Part shown: one piece after another, positions 1,989-33,406 of the stretch | Numbering within the stretch: the stretch's first letter is position 1 | Layout: each line of letters opens with the position of its first letter | Assembly: GCA_947311825.1 (NCBI GenBank) | Contig: CAMZLY010000168.1 | Location: 1 to 33,406 of the forward strand | Direction: 5' to 3' | Origin: an uncultured bacterium | GTDB taxonomy: Bacteria; Verrucomicrobiota; Kiritimatiellia; UBA8416; CAMZLY01 | Length of the DNA: 33,406 nucleotides | The notes under the pieces: model-generated | Database searches by the model: none | Told to the model about the DNA's origin: nothing | Seen by the model: the letters and a program-made list of their open reading frames with translations, nothing else | Made by a program: the position numbers and the translations under genes

Positions 1989-2017
1989 CAAAACAGTGTG
2001 TAAATCTTAATTCCGTA

Positions 2018-2183
2018 GAGGTGCTTGCAAAACTACTTGTGCGTGGCAATTTTTTGTATTTTAGGAGAGCAGATTCTGCCTTTTGAGCAATTGCACATAC
2101 CCGTAGGGTCTGTAGAATTGCGAAAATGCGGAATATGCCGCATAAAATCAAAAAGTGTCCGCAGATAGTTTTGCAAGTGCCTC
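2018..2183. mobile_element. MITE-like foldback element, full copy A (166 bp)
   Basis: TIRs GAGGTGCTTGCAAAACTA / TAGTTTTGCAAGTGCCTC. Flanked by exact 4-bp direct repeats CGTA (2014-2017 and 2184-2187). Near-identical to 22137-22302. Confidence 0.85.
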
Positions 2184-2271
2184 CGTATACTGTTATTTTT
2201 CTTCATTTTTTCGCACTATAAGCTTGCCACTACCACAACTCATTGTTATAGTATTTTTTTTGTGAATTTAG

Positions 2272-4724: not shown

Positions 4725-7355
4725 ATGGAAAACAATACACCTGAAGATATAAAGCCGGAAGATGTGACATCTGAAAATGTGACATCTGAAGAAGTAATGC
4801 CTGATAATATCAGCAACATTCCAATTGAACTGGAAATGAGTAACTCCTACATTGACTACTCAATGAGCGTCATTGTGGGTAGAGCCTTACCGGATGTTCG
4901 TGACGGACTAAAACCAGTTCATCGCCGCGTACTCTTTGCCATGAAAGAACTTAACAACACCCACGCAGCAGCATACAAAAAGTCTGCCCGTGTAGTTGGT
5001 GATGTTATTGGTAAATACCATCCACATGGTGATACCGCCGTTTATGATACTATCGTAAGAATGGCACAGGATTTCTCTATGCGATACCCGCTAGTTGATG
5101 GTCAAGGTAACTTCGGTTCCCGTGATGGCGACTCCGCCGCCGCTATGCGTTATACAGAAATACGCATGCAACGTATGGCAGAAGATTTATTAGCCGATAT
5201 AGACAAAAAAACCGTCGATTTTGGCCCCAACTACGATGAATCACTCGAACAACCACTTGTGTTACCATCAAAAATACCAAATCTACTACTAAACGGGTCA
5301 ACCGGTATTGCTGTTGGTATGGCAACAAACATCCCACCACATAACTTATGCGAACTGGTAGATGGAACAACACACCTAATAGATAATCCACGGGCAACAG
5401 TTGCTGACCTTATGCAGTTTATCAAAGGGCCTGACTTCCCTACCGAAGGCATTATATGCGGATTACAGCCAATTGATGATATGTACAAGACAGGACGCGG
5501 GCAAATGCGTGTTCGTGGTCGTGCAGAAATCATTCCAAACGAAAAGAGCGGCAAAGACACCATTATTATCACCGAACTTCCTTATCAAGTTAATAAGGCT
5601 AAATTCGTTGAAAATATTGCCCATCTTGTACACGAGAAAACCATCGAAGGTATTTCAGCACTACGTGATGAATCAAACACAAAAGAACCGGTTCGTGTTG
5701 TAATTGAACTCAAAAAAGGCATCATGGCAGATGTAATAATCAGCAGCCTATACAAGTTTACACAACTACAAACAACTTTTGGTGCAAATATGCTTGCCAT
5801 TGTAGATGGTCAACCAAAGGTTATGAACCTTAAAGAAATCCTTGGGCATTTTATAGCACACAGGTTCGAAGTTGTCACTAGACGTATCCAGTTCGACTTA
5901 GCAAAAGCTGAAGCACGTCAACACATCCTCGAAGGTCTGCTAAAAGCACTTGATAACCTTGATGATATTGTAAAACTTATCCGTGCCGCCAAAACTAGAG
6001 ATGAAGCTAGAATTGCTATTATTGACAAATACGCATTCAGCCAAATCCAAGCAAAAGCAATTCTAGAAATGCGACTATACCAACTTACCGGTCTAGAACG
6101 AGAAAAAGTAGAAGATGAATATAATGAGCTATGTAAATATATCGATTATCTAACAGATCTATTAGCACATGACGAAAAAATATATGCATTAATCAAAGAA
6201 GAATTAGCAGAAATTAAAGAACGTTACGGCGATGTACGCAGAACTGAAATCACAGTTTCTCAAGATGACGTAAATATCATGGATCTAATTGCTGATGAAC
6301 CATGCATCATTACAATTAGTCATGAAGGATATATCAAGCGCGTCCCAGTTGATACCTACCGCGAACAACGCCGCGGCGGTAAAGGCGTCTCCGGTATGAC
6401 AACCAAAGAAGACGATTTCGTTGAACATCTCTTTATGGCAAAAACCCATGATAAAATGTTGTTCTTCACTAAGGATGGACGCGTTTACTGGAAAATGGCA
6501 TTTCAAATTCCGGAAGCAGGCAGAACAGCCCGTGGCAAAGCAATTGTCAACCTACTCAACCTCAGAGAAGATGAAAAAATTGCGGCAACCATTCCAATTA
6601 GAGAATTTGATGAAAGCCAGTTTATGATCCTTGCCACTCGTAAAGGCGTGATCAAAAAAACCAACCTTTCAAAATACAGTAATGTGCGTAAAGACGGCAT
6701 TATCGCCATCAATATTGATGAAGACGATGAGTTGCTGGCAGTAAAACTCACTAACGGCAACAATCAACTGTTAATCGCAACTGAAAATGGTATGAGCAAC
6801 CGCTTTGAGGAAACTCAACTACGCGATCAAGGTCGTGTTACACGCGGTGTCCGTGGCATCAAACTCCGTGAAGGCGATCAGGTAAACAGCCTTAGCATCA
6901 TTGACGAAGATTCAACATACCTAGTCTGTACCGAAAACGGATATGGTAAACGCTCGTCATTTGACGAATGGCGCATAACCAAACGTGGTGGTATCGGTAT
7001 TATAGCCATCAAAACAACTGAGCGTAACGGTAAAGTTGTTGGCGCGCATGTTGCACACGAAAACGATTCACTAATGCTCATTACAGCCAACGGCATAATG
7101 ATCAAGATGGCAGTAAACTCCATCTCAGTTATCGGCAGGGCAACACAAGGCGTACGCCTAGTTAAGCTTAATGAAGGTGACAAACTAGTCTCAGCCAGCA
7201 TAGTAAAAGCAGAAGACAATGTTGTACCAGAAACTGATGACACAACAGACGGAGAAACTACTGAATTACCAGCAGACAACGCAACAGAAGAAACAACCAA
7301 AGAGGTTGAAACACCCGTTGCGGAAGATGCACCGGAGCCAAAACCAGAAGAATAG
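4725..7355 (+). CDS. gyrA: DNA gyrase subunit A
   Basis: 876 aa. [35 protein letters not shown], catalytic-Tyr region [11 protein letters not shown], and the GyrA-box QRRGGKG. Acidic C-terminal tail. Confidence 0.97.
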
Positions 7356-7464
7356 AGATGCTTACAAAACTACTGTGCGTGGCATTTTTTCCGTTTTAGG
7401 CGAGCAGATTATGCCTTTTAAGCAATTGAGCATGCCCGTAGGGTATGTAAAATTGCGAAAAAGC
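7355..7464. mobile_element. MITE-like element copy B, right side truncated or diverged
   Basis: GAGATGCTTACAAAACTACTGTGCG...GCAATTGAGCATGCCCGTAGGGTATGTAAAATTGCGAAAAAGC matches copies A/D, then homology ends. The first G is the last base of the gyrA TAG stop. Confidence 0.8.
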
Positions 7465-7498
7465 ACCTTAACGATGGTGTGATGGTTCTCTATGACAA

Positions 7499-15536: not shown

Positions 15537-15554
15537 TAGTTTTGCAAGTGCCTC
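15537..15554. repeat. Solo terminal inverted repeat of the MITE-like element (copy C)
   Basis: TAGTTTTGCAAGTGCCTC, identical to the right ends of copies A and D. Overlaps the stop codon of the minus-strand CDS ending at 15553. Confidence 0.8.
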
Positions 15555-17745
15555 AACCACAAAACAAATATACCGGCATTCCTGTCAGTTTGATTTTATT
15601 GCCATCAGGTTCTACAACATCCCCGTTTAACATCTGTATCTCTATACATTTAAATGGCAACTCTATTTCAACTGTCGCATCCAGGTTTACCCAGGCTAGA
15701 CACACCACACCTATTTCAGGAACATTATATTTAAAAACATATACGTTATCTAACTCATCGATCTTGATTCTACTATCAAAAACAGAGTCACCTAATATCT
15801 CTAGGTAAATTTTTAATGCATCGTATGCTGGACGCTTACGTAATTTTGATAAGTCGGCATCATCTACAATACCAAAGCCATGCGCAACCATTCTCCACCA
15901 GTAAACTCTTTCGACCATACCGGATGATACAGCTATTGCTATATATCGAATCATAAAACTTGTATAATCCTCTTCACTGACGCTGGGGTCATTATAACGA
16001 ACACCGGGGGAAACATACGGTGCGCCTACCGGCGAATAAACTCCTGAACCTAATAACGGCCAGTTTACTTCAGAAACAATAAGCTTATCATCACATTTTA
16101 AAGAGGTTCTCGCTATTGCTCTAGCCATAACAAATTTATCAAGAGCATCAAATTTACCTTGTCTATTTTCCGGTGCACCGCGCCTATCAACATACAAATG
16201 ATGCGATAAAGCAGCAAAATGAATATTTTTCGGGACTTCCCGTAATGCAGCCATCACAAATGGATACTCAAAATCAATTGCCGAAGGACCCGTAAGTCTC
16301 AAGCCAGACCACTTAGATGCAACATCTGCAACAATATCCATTAACTGTTTTAATTCGGAAAAGCTCCATATCCCCCACTTCACCCTATTAATAGCATGAC
16401 CAACTTCTACATATTCTACAAGTTCCGCTACACAACCTAAAACTTTCTCAACAAATATCCGCCATGCTGCAGAATCAGTAACTGCTATCCTATCCTGAAC
16501 TAATGCAATAGAAACGGTAAATCCTATATCAGATAATTCACGGACAACGCCTATCTTAAACTCACATTGATCTACAGATTCATGACGATAAAACCGCATT
16601 GATACCGGCATTATTCTCAGTTCTTTCAACAACTCCAACTGTTGTCGCCATATTTCTTTACGCGGCTCAATGCTTATACCAAGCCGATCAAGCATATTTA
16701 CTGTTTTTTTGTAACATTCTAACTTTAATTTTTTATATTCTTTTTTTACAGGTAAAAAATCTGCAGCCACAGCACATACAGGCTTAGTTATCCATGAAGA
16801 CGAGTAAAACTTATGCCGATCCTTTGATTTCATGATTACTATAGGTTGTGCAGAACGCTCATCCCATATCCACAAATCACGCGGTGCAGGATATATCTCT
16901 GGCTTTTTCTCTGTATTTCTGTTTTTAAAAGTTTTTATTGGATGACGAAGTTTCCTCGTTGCCGCATGTTTCGCATAACGCCTTCGATAAATAAGTTCCC
17001 ATTTAACAAAATCCTCTGCCGGGACTTTTCCCCCATAATACATCTCTACAAAAACCCGTAATAAATCTGATGGCAGCCATATTCTGGAAATATCACGGGC
17101 ACGTTGTTTGTTAGATAATGTTTTTTCTATATTAGCTCGGTTAAGATCAATAAACTGAACATTACCCCACTTACCGTCACCAATATATGAAAGCATAACA
17201 TTTTGATTACCAAGATCATTATGCTGACAGCCACACCGATGCATATTAGCAACAGCCTCGGCGACGACCTGTAAAAGATTCATAAACTTCCAGCATTCAG
17301 GTTCTTCTTTAAAAAGACGAGAAAGTTCAGTCGTAAAGTCTGATATACCAGCTTGATAAACTGACACAAAATAGCTTTCTAATAATTTCTTGCCCTCCCA
17401 TCGTTCAAGGAACGCAACAGGTTCCGGTGTGCCAACACCATTCTTCTGTAAATGCCTGGCAACCATCCAAGTACGGAGAGCCTTGCTCCCACGTGTTGAA
17501 TCTAACATATTTTTTACTGCCGATTCTCTTCCAAACGACTTCACAACCAAATCAAACAACTGTCCCTGTTCAAAGATTCTAATTCTAATGTTACTATTTC
17601 GACCCACAGCCAACACTTCTGCAGCAGAATCAGCAATAAGGCTTCTTATTTTCGGCAAGTGAATAGACAGCAAGTCCCTATATTGCGAAGCAATAACCCC
17701 ACGATACATTCCTATATCAATTAAATTATCCAGTTCTAATATCAT
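15553..17745 (-). CDS. Kdo/WaaP-like lipopolysaccharide-kinase domain fused to a clan-A glycoside-hydrolase-like TIM-barrel domain
   Basis: 730 aa. Kinase signatures: LVVKSFG (Lys), CGCQHNDLGNQNVML (HxDLxxxN), VQFIDLNRANI (metal-binding Asp). C-terminal half: VEYVEVGHAINRVKWGIWS, IHFAALSHHLYVDRRGAPENRQGKF, LIVSEVNWPLLGSGVYSP, then a beta-rich tail ending TGMPVYL. Confidence 0.75.
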   Translation of the reverse strand: MILELDNLIDIGMYRGVIASQYRDLLSIHLPKIRSLIADSAAEVLAVGRNSNIRIRIFEQGQLFDLVVKSFGRESAVKNMLDSTRGSKALRTWMVARHLQKNGVGTPEPVAFLERWEGKKLLESYFVSVYQAGISDFTTELSRLFKEEPECWKFMNLLQVVAEAVANMHRCGCQHNDLGNQNVMLSYIGDGKWGNVQFIDLNRANIEKTLSNKQRARDISRIWLPSDLLRVFVEMYYGGKVPAEDFVKWELIYRRRYAKHAATRKLRHPIKTFKNRNTEKKPEIYPAPRDLWIWDERSAQPIVIMKSKDRHKFYSSSWITKPVCAVAADFLPVKKEYKKLKLECYKKTVNMLDRLGISIEPRKEIWRQQLELLKELRIMPVSMRFYRHESVDQCEFKIGVVRELSDIGFTVSIALVQDRIAVTDSAAWRIFVEKVLGCVAELVEYVEVGHAINRVKWGIWSFSELKQLMDIVADVASKWSGLRLTGPSAIDFEYPFVMAALREVPKNIHFAALSHHLYVDRRGAPENRQGKFDALDKFVMARAIARTSLKCDDKLIVSEVNWPLLGSGVYSPVGAPYVSPGVRYNDPSVSEEDYTSFMIRYIAIAVSSGMVERVYWWRMVAHGFGIVDDADLSKLRKRPAYDALKIYLEILGDSVFDSRIKIDELDNVYVFKYNVPEIGVVCLAWVNLDATVEIELPFKCIEIQMLNGDVVEPDGNKIKLTGMPVYLFCG

Positions 17746-21528: not shown

Positions 21529-22134
21529 ATGACAACACTATCAATTGAACAAAGTACTATTATCGAACTACCCGACATCACTAACAAACTAAACTTGGAA
21601 GGGTTGTTCGCTAAAGAATCACCAATCGAAATTGATATAGGTTGCGGCAAGGGACGTTTTCTACTATCACGTGCAGCATCATATCCGGACACTAACTTCA
21701 TCGGTATAGACCGTATGAATGGAAGACTTGGTAAGCTTGATCGCAAGATTATACGTGCCAACTTAGAAAATGTTCGACTCATAAAACTGGAAGCTGCTTA
21801 TGTGATATCAGAACTTATGCCACCAAATGCTATTTCTACATATTATATTTTCTTTCCCGACCCTTGGCCAAAGCGTAAACATCACCGACGCCGACTTATG
21901 AGTACAGACTTCCTGGACGCACTGCATCGCACGCTAATTTCCGGTGGTACAGTAAACTTCTCAACAGATCACCTTGACTACTTCGATGCAGGATACAAAC
22001 TACTATGTAATGATAAACGATTTGAAGAAATAGAAACCTTTCAACGCACAGAAAGTGAAAAAACAGACTTTGAACTTATTTTTACAAACCAAAATTTACC
22101 TATCGGTAATTGCTCCTTTAAAAAATCAAAATAA
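21529..22134 (+). CDS. trmB: tRNA (guanine-N7-)-methyltransferase
   Basis: 201 aa. IEIDIGCGKGRFLL, NFIGIDRM, YYIFFPDPWPKRKHHRRRLM, NFSTDHLDYF. Confidence 0.95.
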   Translation: MTTLSIEQSTIIELPDITNKLNLEGLFAKESPIEIDIGCGKGRFLLSRAASYPDTNFIGIDRMNGRLGKLDRKIIRANLENVRLIKLEAAYVISELMPPNAISTYYIFFPDPWPKRKHHRRRLMSTDFLDALHRTLISGGTVNFSTDHLDYFDAGYKLLCNDKRFEEIETFQRTESEKTDFELIFTNQNLPIGNCSFKKSK

Positions 22135-22136
22135 GA

Positions 22137-22302
22137 GAGGTGCTTGCAAAACTACTGTGCGAGGCAATGTTTCGTATTTTAGGCGAGCAAATTCTGCCTT
22201 TTAAACAATTGGAGCATACCTGTAGGGTCTGTAAAATTGCGAAAAAGCGGAATATGCCGCATAAAATCAAAAAGTGCCCGCAGATAGTTTTGCAAGTGCC
22301 TC
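22137..22302. mobile_element. MITE-like foldback element, full copy D (166 bp)
   Basis: Same TIRs as copy A. Flanked by exact 4-bp direct repeats AAGA (22133-22136 and 22303-22306). Begins 2 bp after the trmB stop codon. Confidence 0.87.
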
Positions 22303-22360
22303 AAGAAACATACATAATAACTTGCACACACCACTATTATCAGATAATCTTTCTTTTTAA

Positions 22361-22378
22361 TAGTTTTGCAAGTACCTC
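22361..22378. repeat. Solo terminal inverted repeat of the MITE-like element (TAGTTTTGCAAGTACCTC)
   Basis: 17 of 18 positions match the right TIR of copy D. Lies 58 bp downstream of that copy. Confidence 0.75.
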
Positions 22379-28227: not shown

Positions 28228-28258
28228 TTTTATCCTCAATATTATTAACCTTATAAGG

Positions 28259-28271
28259 TGCAAGTACCTCC
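28259..28271. repeat. Possible degenerate MITE terminal end (minus strand GGAGGTACTTGCA)
   Basis: TGCAAGTACCTC shares its last 12 bases with the solo end at 22361-22378, then diverges. Short, so possibly chance. Confidence 0.35.
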
Positions 28272-29685: not shown

Positions 29686-29750
29686 GAGGTGCTTGCAAAA
29701 CTACTGTACGAGGCAATTCTTTGCATTTTAGGCGAGTAGATTCTACCTTC
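29686..29750. mobile_element. MITE-like element copy E, left part only
   Basis: GAGGTGCTTGCAAAACTACTGTACGAGGCAATTCTTTGCATTTTAGGCGAGTAGATTCTACCTT matches the left arm of copies A/D. Homology then stops. Confidence 0.8.
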
Positions 29751-33317: not shown

Positions 33318-33406
33318 GAGGTGCTTGCAAAACTACTGTGCGAGGCAATTTTTTGTATTTTAGGCGAGCAGATTCTGCCTTTTGTGCAATTGGAGCATAC
33401 CCGTAG
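33318..33406. mobile_element. MITE-like element copy F, cut by the window end
   Basis: GAGGTGCTTGCAAAACTACTGTGCGAGGCAATTTTTTGTATTTTAGGCGAGCAGATTCTGCCTTTTGTGCAATTGGAGCATACCCGTAG matches the left arm and centre of copies A/D. Confidence 0.88.

Follow-up and report, generated by a model that had tools for sequence, protein, structure and literature searches.

The window analysed here, a 33,406-nucleotide contig from an uncultured Kiritimatiellia bacterium, contains two full copies of a 166-bp repeat, one close to gyrB and one located downstream of a putative trmB-like ORF (21529–22134), 2 bp from its stop codon, together with several partial copies. The features are as follows, with the evidence in parentheses.

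2014..2017, unstranded: left target-site duplication CGTA of copy 1 (sequence)
2018..2183, plus strand: full-length MITE copy 1, 103 bp upstream of gyrB (sequence, alignment, DNA hairpin z = −9.3)
2018..2035, plus strand: left terminal inverted repeat of copy 1, followed by the IS-like subterminal motif GCGTGG at element positions 24–29
2166..2183, minus strand: right terminal inverted repeat of copy 1 (sequence, alignment)
2184..2187, unstranded: right target-site duplication CGTA of copy 1 (sequence)
7355..7471, plus strand: internally deleted copy with left arm and loop present, right arm gone and a GCACCTT terminus (sequence)
15537..15554, minus strand: solo right end (sequence, alignment, ORF coordinates)
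22133..22136, unstranded: left target-site duplication AAGA of copy 2 (sequence)
22137..22302, plus strand: full-length MITE copy 2, 166 bp (sequence, alignment, ORF coordinates)
22303..22306, unstranded: right target-site duplication AAGA of copy 2 (sequence)
22361..22378, minus strand: solo right-type end, 58 bp beyond copy 2
29686..29749, plus strand: truncated copy, left 64 bp, 87.5% identical (sequence)
33318..33406, plus strand: left 89 bp of a copy, cut at the contig end (sequence)

The two full copies, 166 bp each, are 92% identical and share the 18-bp inverted ends GAGGTGCTTGCAAAACTA / TAGTTTTGCAAGTGCCTC, confirming the near-identity and common ends described in the first-pass annotation of this DNA. 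The flanks that it had read as CGTA/CGTA and AAGA/AAGA are indeed exact 4-bp duplications differing between the two sites, and no ORF of at least 100 aa spans either copy, in agreement with its view that the element contains no convincing ORF. Thus, a non-coding element of 166 bp, well below the size limit of about 600 bp for MITEs, is bounded by 18-bp terminal inverted repeats. The partial copies previously reported at 7355, 15537, 22361, 29686 and 33318 are all real, but they form a heterogeneous group in which several are internal deletions, and the copy at 33318 represents no natural truncation because the contig stops at 33406 inside the element. The site at 28259, listed earlier as doubtful, is still doubtful, with about 13 terminal bases only; the surrounding 28256–28271 segment, AAGGTGCAAGTACCTC, resembles a 16-bp scar left by collapse of the element and carries no matching duplication. 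The first G of the copy at 7355 is the last base of the gyrA stop codon TAG (the gyrA ORF ends at 7355), and the terminal TC of the solo end at 15537 together with the next A forms the TGA codon that terminates ORF 15553–17745 on the minus strand, so that the stop codons at 7353–7355 and 15553–15555 are partly made up of element termini. The high local density claimed for the window corresponded to a moderate excess, 7 sites versus about 2 expected (Poisson p about 0.004) from a genome average based on the matches listed.

The source genome is a 2.5-Mb, 88%-complete MAG of 214 contigs, in which the 18-mer end with ≤2 mismatches occurred at least 204 times compared to 0 occurrences of the reversed control, a frequency that exceeds chance. 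Two end searches combined revealed about 148 dispersed element sites among the matches listed, a scope that applies to all genome counts obtained here by pattern searches. By simple ORF calling, 47 of 50 analysed elements were located outside ORFs, and they lay nearer to the 3′ than to the 5′ ends of genes (median 48 versus 104 bp, with start calls being approximate). Seven copies constitute a subfamily carrying a 33-bp insert, TTTATCTGCCTGATTGCGAAGCTTTCGGTATGA, beside the right end. Several dozen contigs start or stop about 70–130 bp inside an element, indicating that the repeat fragments the assembly, and the copy at 33318 in the window is among these breaks; copies in this Kiritimatiellia genome both break assembly and sit near stop codons.

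The tally of duplications covered 36 long copies whose flanks were both available and 14 short forms among the matches listed. An exact 4-bp duplication was present in 16/36 long copies (binomial p about 3e-14) and in 10/14 short forms (p about 5e-8), where flank shuffling predicted about 1.3 in either set; the duplication length was thus constant at 4 bp and exact in 26 of the 50 elements. The first-pass annotation had proposed that a lack of 4-bp duplications at most full copies would argue against transposition. Exact duplications were absent from 20 of the 36 long copies, which goes part of the way in that direction, but the 16 exact cases far exceeded the shuffled expectation. The absence was concentrated in near-consensus long copies, defined as those within 7 differences of the consensus, with 14/18 of these lacking the duplication compared to 6/18 of the more diverged ones (Fisher p = 0.018). 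Misassembly or recombination between copies is the likely cause, because near-identical copies are the most prone to assembler misjoins and to recombination in the cell. The same unmatched flanks at many near-consensus copies, along with the many contigs ending about 70–130 bp inside the element, could be taken as a sign that the whole family consists of segmental duplications or is an artefact of a fragmented MAG. We consider this probability negligible, since the flanks differ at every copy while the elements keep the same borders down to the base, exact duplications accompany diverged copies, and breaks inside the repeat are expected of any real high-copy repeat.

A genome of the same genus, showing 83% DNA identity over gyrB-gyrA, contained the element neither upstream of gyrB nor downstream of gyrA. 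The search for empty orthologous sites suggested by the earlier annotation was thus successful in part: the element is absent at both loci, but a precise empty site was not obtained, as the gene upstream of gyrB differs and this break in synteny made the exact site before gyrB not alignable. At the enolase locus, the orthologous-site comparison gave no match in this genome. The same-genus genome possesses sister MITEs with IS1182-type ends and 4-bp duplications TTCA, TGAG, CTTA and ACTA. It also harbors other MITE families of 132, 156 and 195–238 bp with ends GAGSYNCTTGCAAAACTA, several of them with 4-bp duplications. On 6 contigs of named genomes, from Verrucomicrobia, Polarisedimenticolaceae, Chromatiales and other proteobacterial MAGs, this end sequence occurred in pairs bounding short hairpin elements, and exact 4-bp duplications flanked 3/6 of them.

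Each element is a single imperfect palindrome folding end to end, and copy 1 as single-stranded DNA reached −44.8 kcal/mol (z = −9.3), consistent with the stable stem-loop characteristic of MITEs. Such a hairpin, mostly intergenic and often near stop codons, would also be expected of a REP/BIME-like or functional non-coding RNA family kept by selection and spread by a route other than a cut-and-insert transposase. We regard this origin as very improbable given the different 4-bp duplications at many sites, the defined ends common to autonomous ISs, the frequent internal deletions, and the lack of the element at both orthologous loci compared within the genus. In addition, an Rfam search of the whole window returned no match to a curated family, and promoter and terminator scans revealed nothing significant, with no terminator-like site at copy 1.

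The 27- and 32-bp forms are the predicted products of deletion between 4-nt repeats flanking the hairpin (GTGC, GCAC), and the 33-bp forms appeared by inspection to be consistent with a 3-nt TGC repeat. Deletion does not most often involve the longest of the direct repeats, TTTTGCA (7 nt), and for this reason the slippage account of the scars stays a proposal. An identical 32-mer was found at four sites with the duplications TTTA, TTTT, TTTT and AATA, and one such 32-bp form in the same-genus genome was flanked by AGTA/AGTA. Judging from the sequences, we favour an origin of the short forms by repeated in-place deletion, because they derive from both arms. It is unlikely that the 32–33 bp forms, which consist of one full end and about 7–9 bp of the other, are themselves mobile; if truly mobile, they would be among the smallest transposable units known. 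The graded set leading from an intact hairpin to a short scar at marked insertion sites should be useful for analysing how bacteria dispose of long palindromes.

A search for a larger IS with the same ends had been suggested, and the partner type was identified outside the host genome as ISUnCu17-type elements of the IS1182 family, which have ends GAGNNNCTTGCAAAAC and a length of about 1.4–1.7 kb, several copies being flanked by 4-bp duplications. When named genomes were scanned, an IS of 1439 bp with the same ends came to light in Janthinobacterium sp. CG3. Its left end matches copy 1 at 27/29 bases, including 10/11 beyond the 18-bp repeat (permutation p = 0.0008), as expected of an element derived from an IS1182 (ISUnCu17-type) IS, and blastn aligned it with the element over 35 bp; other ISUnCu17-type members gave blastn-level matches of 15–21 bp. 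The transposase of the Janthinobacterium IS is frame-broken, contains DUF772 and DDE_Tnp_1 domains, and has IS1182 as the best NCBIfam match, below the cut-off. On plasmids, its nearest relatives carry the annotations IS1182-like ISUnCu17 or IS1182-family. ISUnCu17 copies of Aeromonas and pMLUA3, bounded by GAGCCTCTTGCAAAAG / GAGCTTCTTGCAAAAC, lie between ATGA and TCCT duplications, and a Comamonas IS1182 element has ends GAGGCTCTTGC with duplication TGGT, the GAG...CTTGCA ends being common to these ISUnCu17 and Comamonas elements. One copy of an Acinetobacter element is flanked by the duplication TTAG; inspection of the flanks showed no 4-bp duplication at the other Acinetobacter copies and at the Janthinobacterium IS. 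Taken together, ATGA, TCCT, TGGT and TTAG demonstrate that ISUnCu17-type ISs generate duplications of the same 4-bp length as the MITE. In the Aeromonas caviae plasmid, the ISUnCu17 copy adjoins qacEdelta1/sul1 and other resistance genes.

The ISUnCu17-type transposase family is present in 28/346 genomes of the class, several of them with ends GAGGCTCTTGCAAAAC or GAGCCTCTTGCAAAAC. The earlier statement that the window holds no transposase for the element extends to the host's own incomplete MAG, since searches of the 88%-complete genome for an ISUnCu17-type transposase and for matches to the IS1182 NCBIfam model or PF01609 all came back empty. An IS of about 1.5 kb present in many copies would be prone to assemble into a separate contig too short for binning, which makes the absence of the partner from the MAG weak evidence. 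Blastn of the 166 bp against plasmids yielded weak 29-base matches only. Three other candidates were rejected: the end sequence occurred in viral contigs as four single matches with no transposase nearby, which were taken as chance; classic IS1182 in the same order has ends that are related but more distant; and an apparent 1433-bp end pair on an Atopobiaceae contig enclosed ordinary genes and no transposase.

We conclude with good confidence that the 166-bp repeat is a non-autonomous MITE, most likely moved by the ISUnCu17-type branch of IS1182. Its description as a transposed non-autonomous element was upheld by duplications far above chance, by its absence at gyrB/gyrA in the same-genus genome, and by the existence of autonomous ISs of the IS1182 family that share its ends and likewise show 4-bp duplications. 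A MITE mobilized by another transposase family with similar ends, such as an IS5-type enzyme, with the IS1182 likeness reflecting distant ancestry or convergence, is a possibility to which we assign a low probability. In its favour, IS5 models too give scores for the ISUnCu17-type transposases, which fall below the cut-off of the IS1182 model, and the host genome offered no partner. However, the match runs past the 18-bp ends into the GCGTGG motif of IS1182-type elements, the 4-bp duplication length is the same as theirs, and PF01609, which detects many IS5-type transposases too, found nothing in the host genome. As for the ISUnCu17-type branch, an IS1182-type transposase appears to have moved the element in this species, a reading derived from sequence comparison and kept at the level of inference because the 88%-complete assembly has no such transposase.

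In the proposed mechanism, the non-coding 166-bp element, folding end to end into one imperfect hairpin, would have its ends recognised in trans by the DDE transposase of the ISUnCu17-type branch, and insertion at 4-bp staggered cuts would create the 4-bp target duplications. Many inserted copies would later have their hairpin deleted, with the short direct repeats GCAC, GTGC and TGC as the apparent endpoints, leaving scars of 27–33 bp in which the target duplication is mostly retained. MITEs with GAGNNNCTTGCAAAAC ends in Verrucomicrobia and proteobacterial contigs would thereby be tied to one identifiable transposase branch.

Among known systems, the ISUnCu17-type ISs of Aeromonas plasmids, pMLUA3, Comamonas, Acinetobacter and Kiritimatiellia resemble the MITE in their ends, close to GAGNNNCTTGCAAAAC, and in their 4-bp duplications, and GCGTGG at positions 24–29 is common to ISUnCu17, the Janthinobacterium element and copy 1. 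In contrast to the MITE, which is non-coding and shows no interior similarity to them, they are autonomous, 1.4–1.7 kb long, and encode a transposase of about 370–390 aa. Methanosarcina acetivorans carries MITEs of 160 and 169 bp, in 14 and 7 copies, derived from ISMac2 of the IS1182 family, with end/direct-repeat columns of 26/4 and 25/0 (PMC3852290), so that 4-bp direct repeats are recorded for one of them. Set side by side by description, they belong to the same IS family and are similar in size to the MITE reported here but differ in the archaeal host, a named partner IS, and about tenfold fewer copies. MITEPye1 of Paracoccus yeei, with 18-bp ends similar to those of IS1182-family ISPye18, direct repeats, a long stem-loop and an intergenic location (PMC11578231), shares all these traits with the present element; it differs in having 1–3 copies per chromosome, a partner or related IS in the genomes, and a host from another phylum. 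Chunjie (Geobacter) and QMITE2 (Coxiella) are hairpin MITEs whose numerous copies include full, truncated and size-variant ones (PMC10969869), distinct from the present MITE in size and host, and the duplications of QMITE2 measure 7–9 bp. Our literature searches found no paper combining Kiritimatiellia with miniature inverted-repeat elements and no relevant paper for the string TTGCAAAACTA. The element is thus a real, abundant and well-supported MITE and not a new kind of element: as both IS1182-derived MITEs and high-copy size-variant MITEs have already been published, it belongs to a known kind, of which it is an unusually abundant example.
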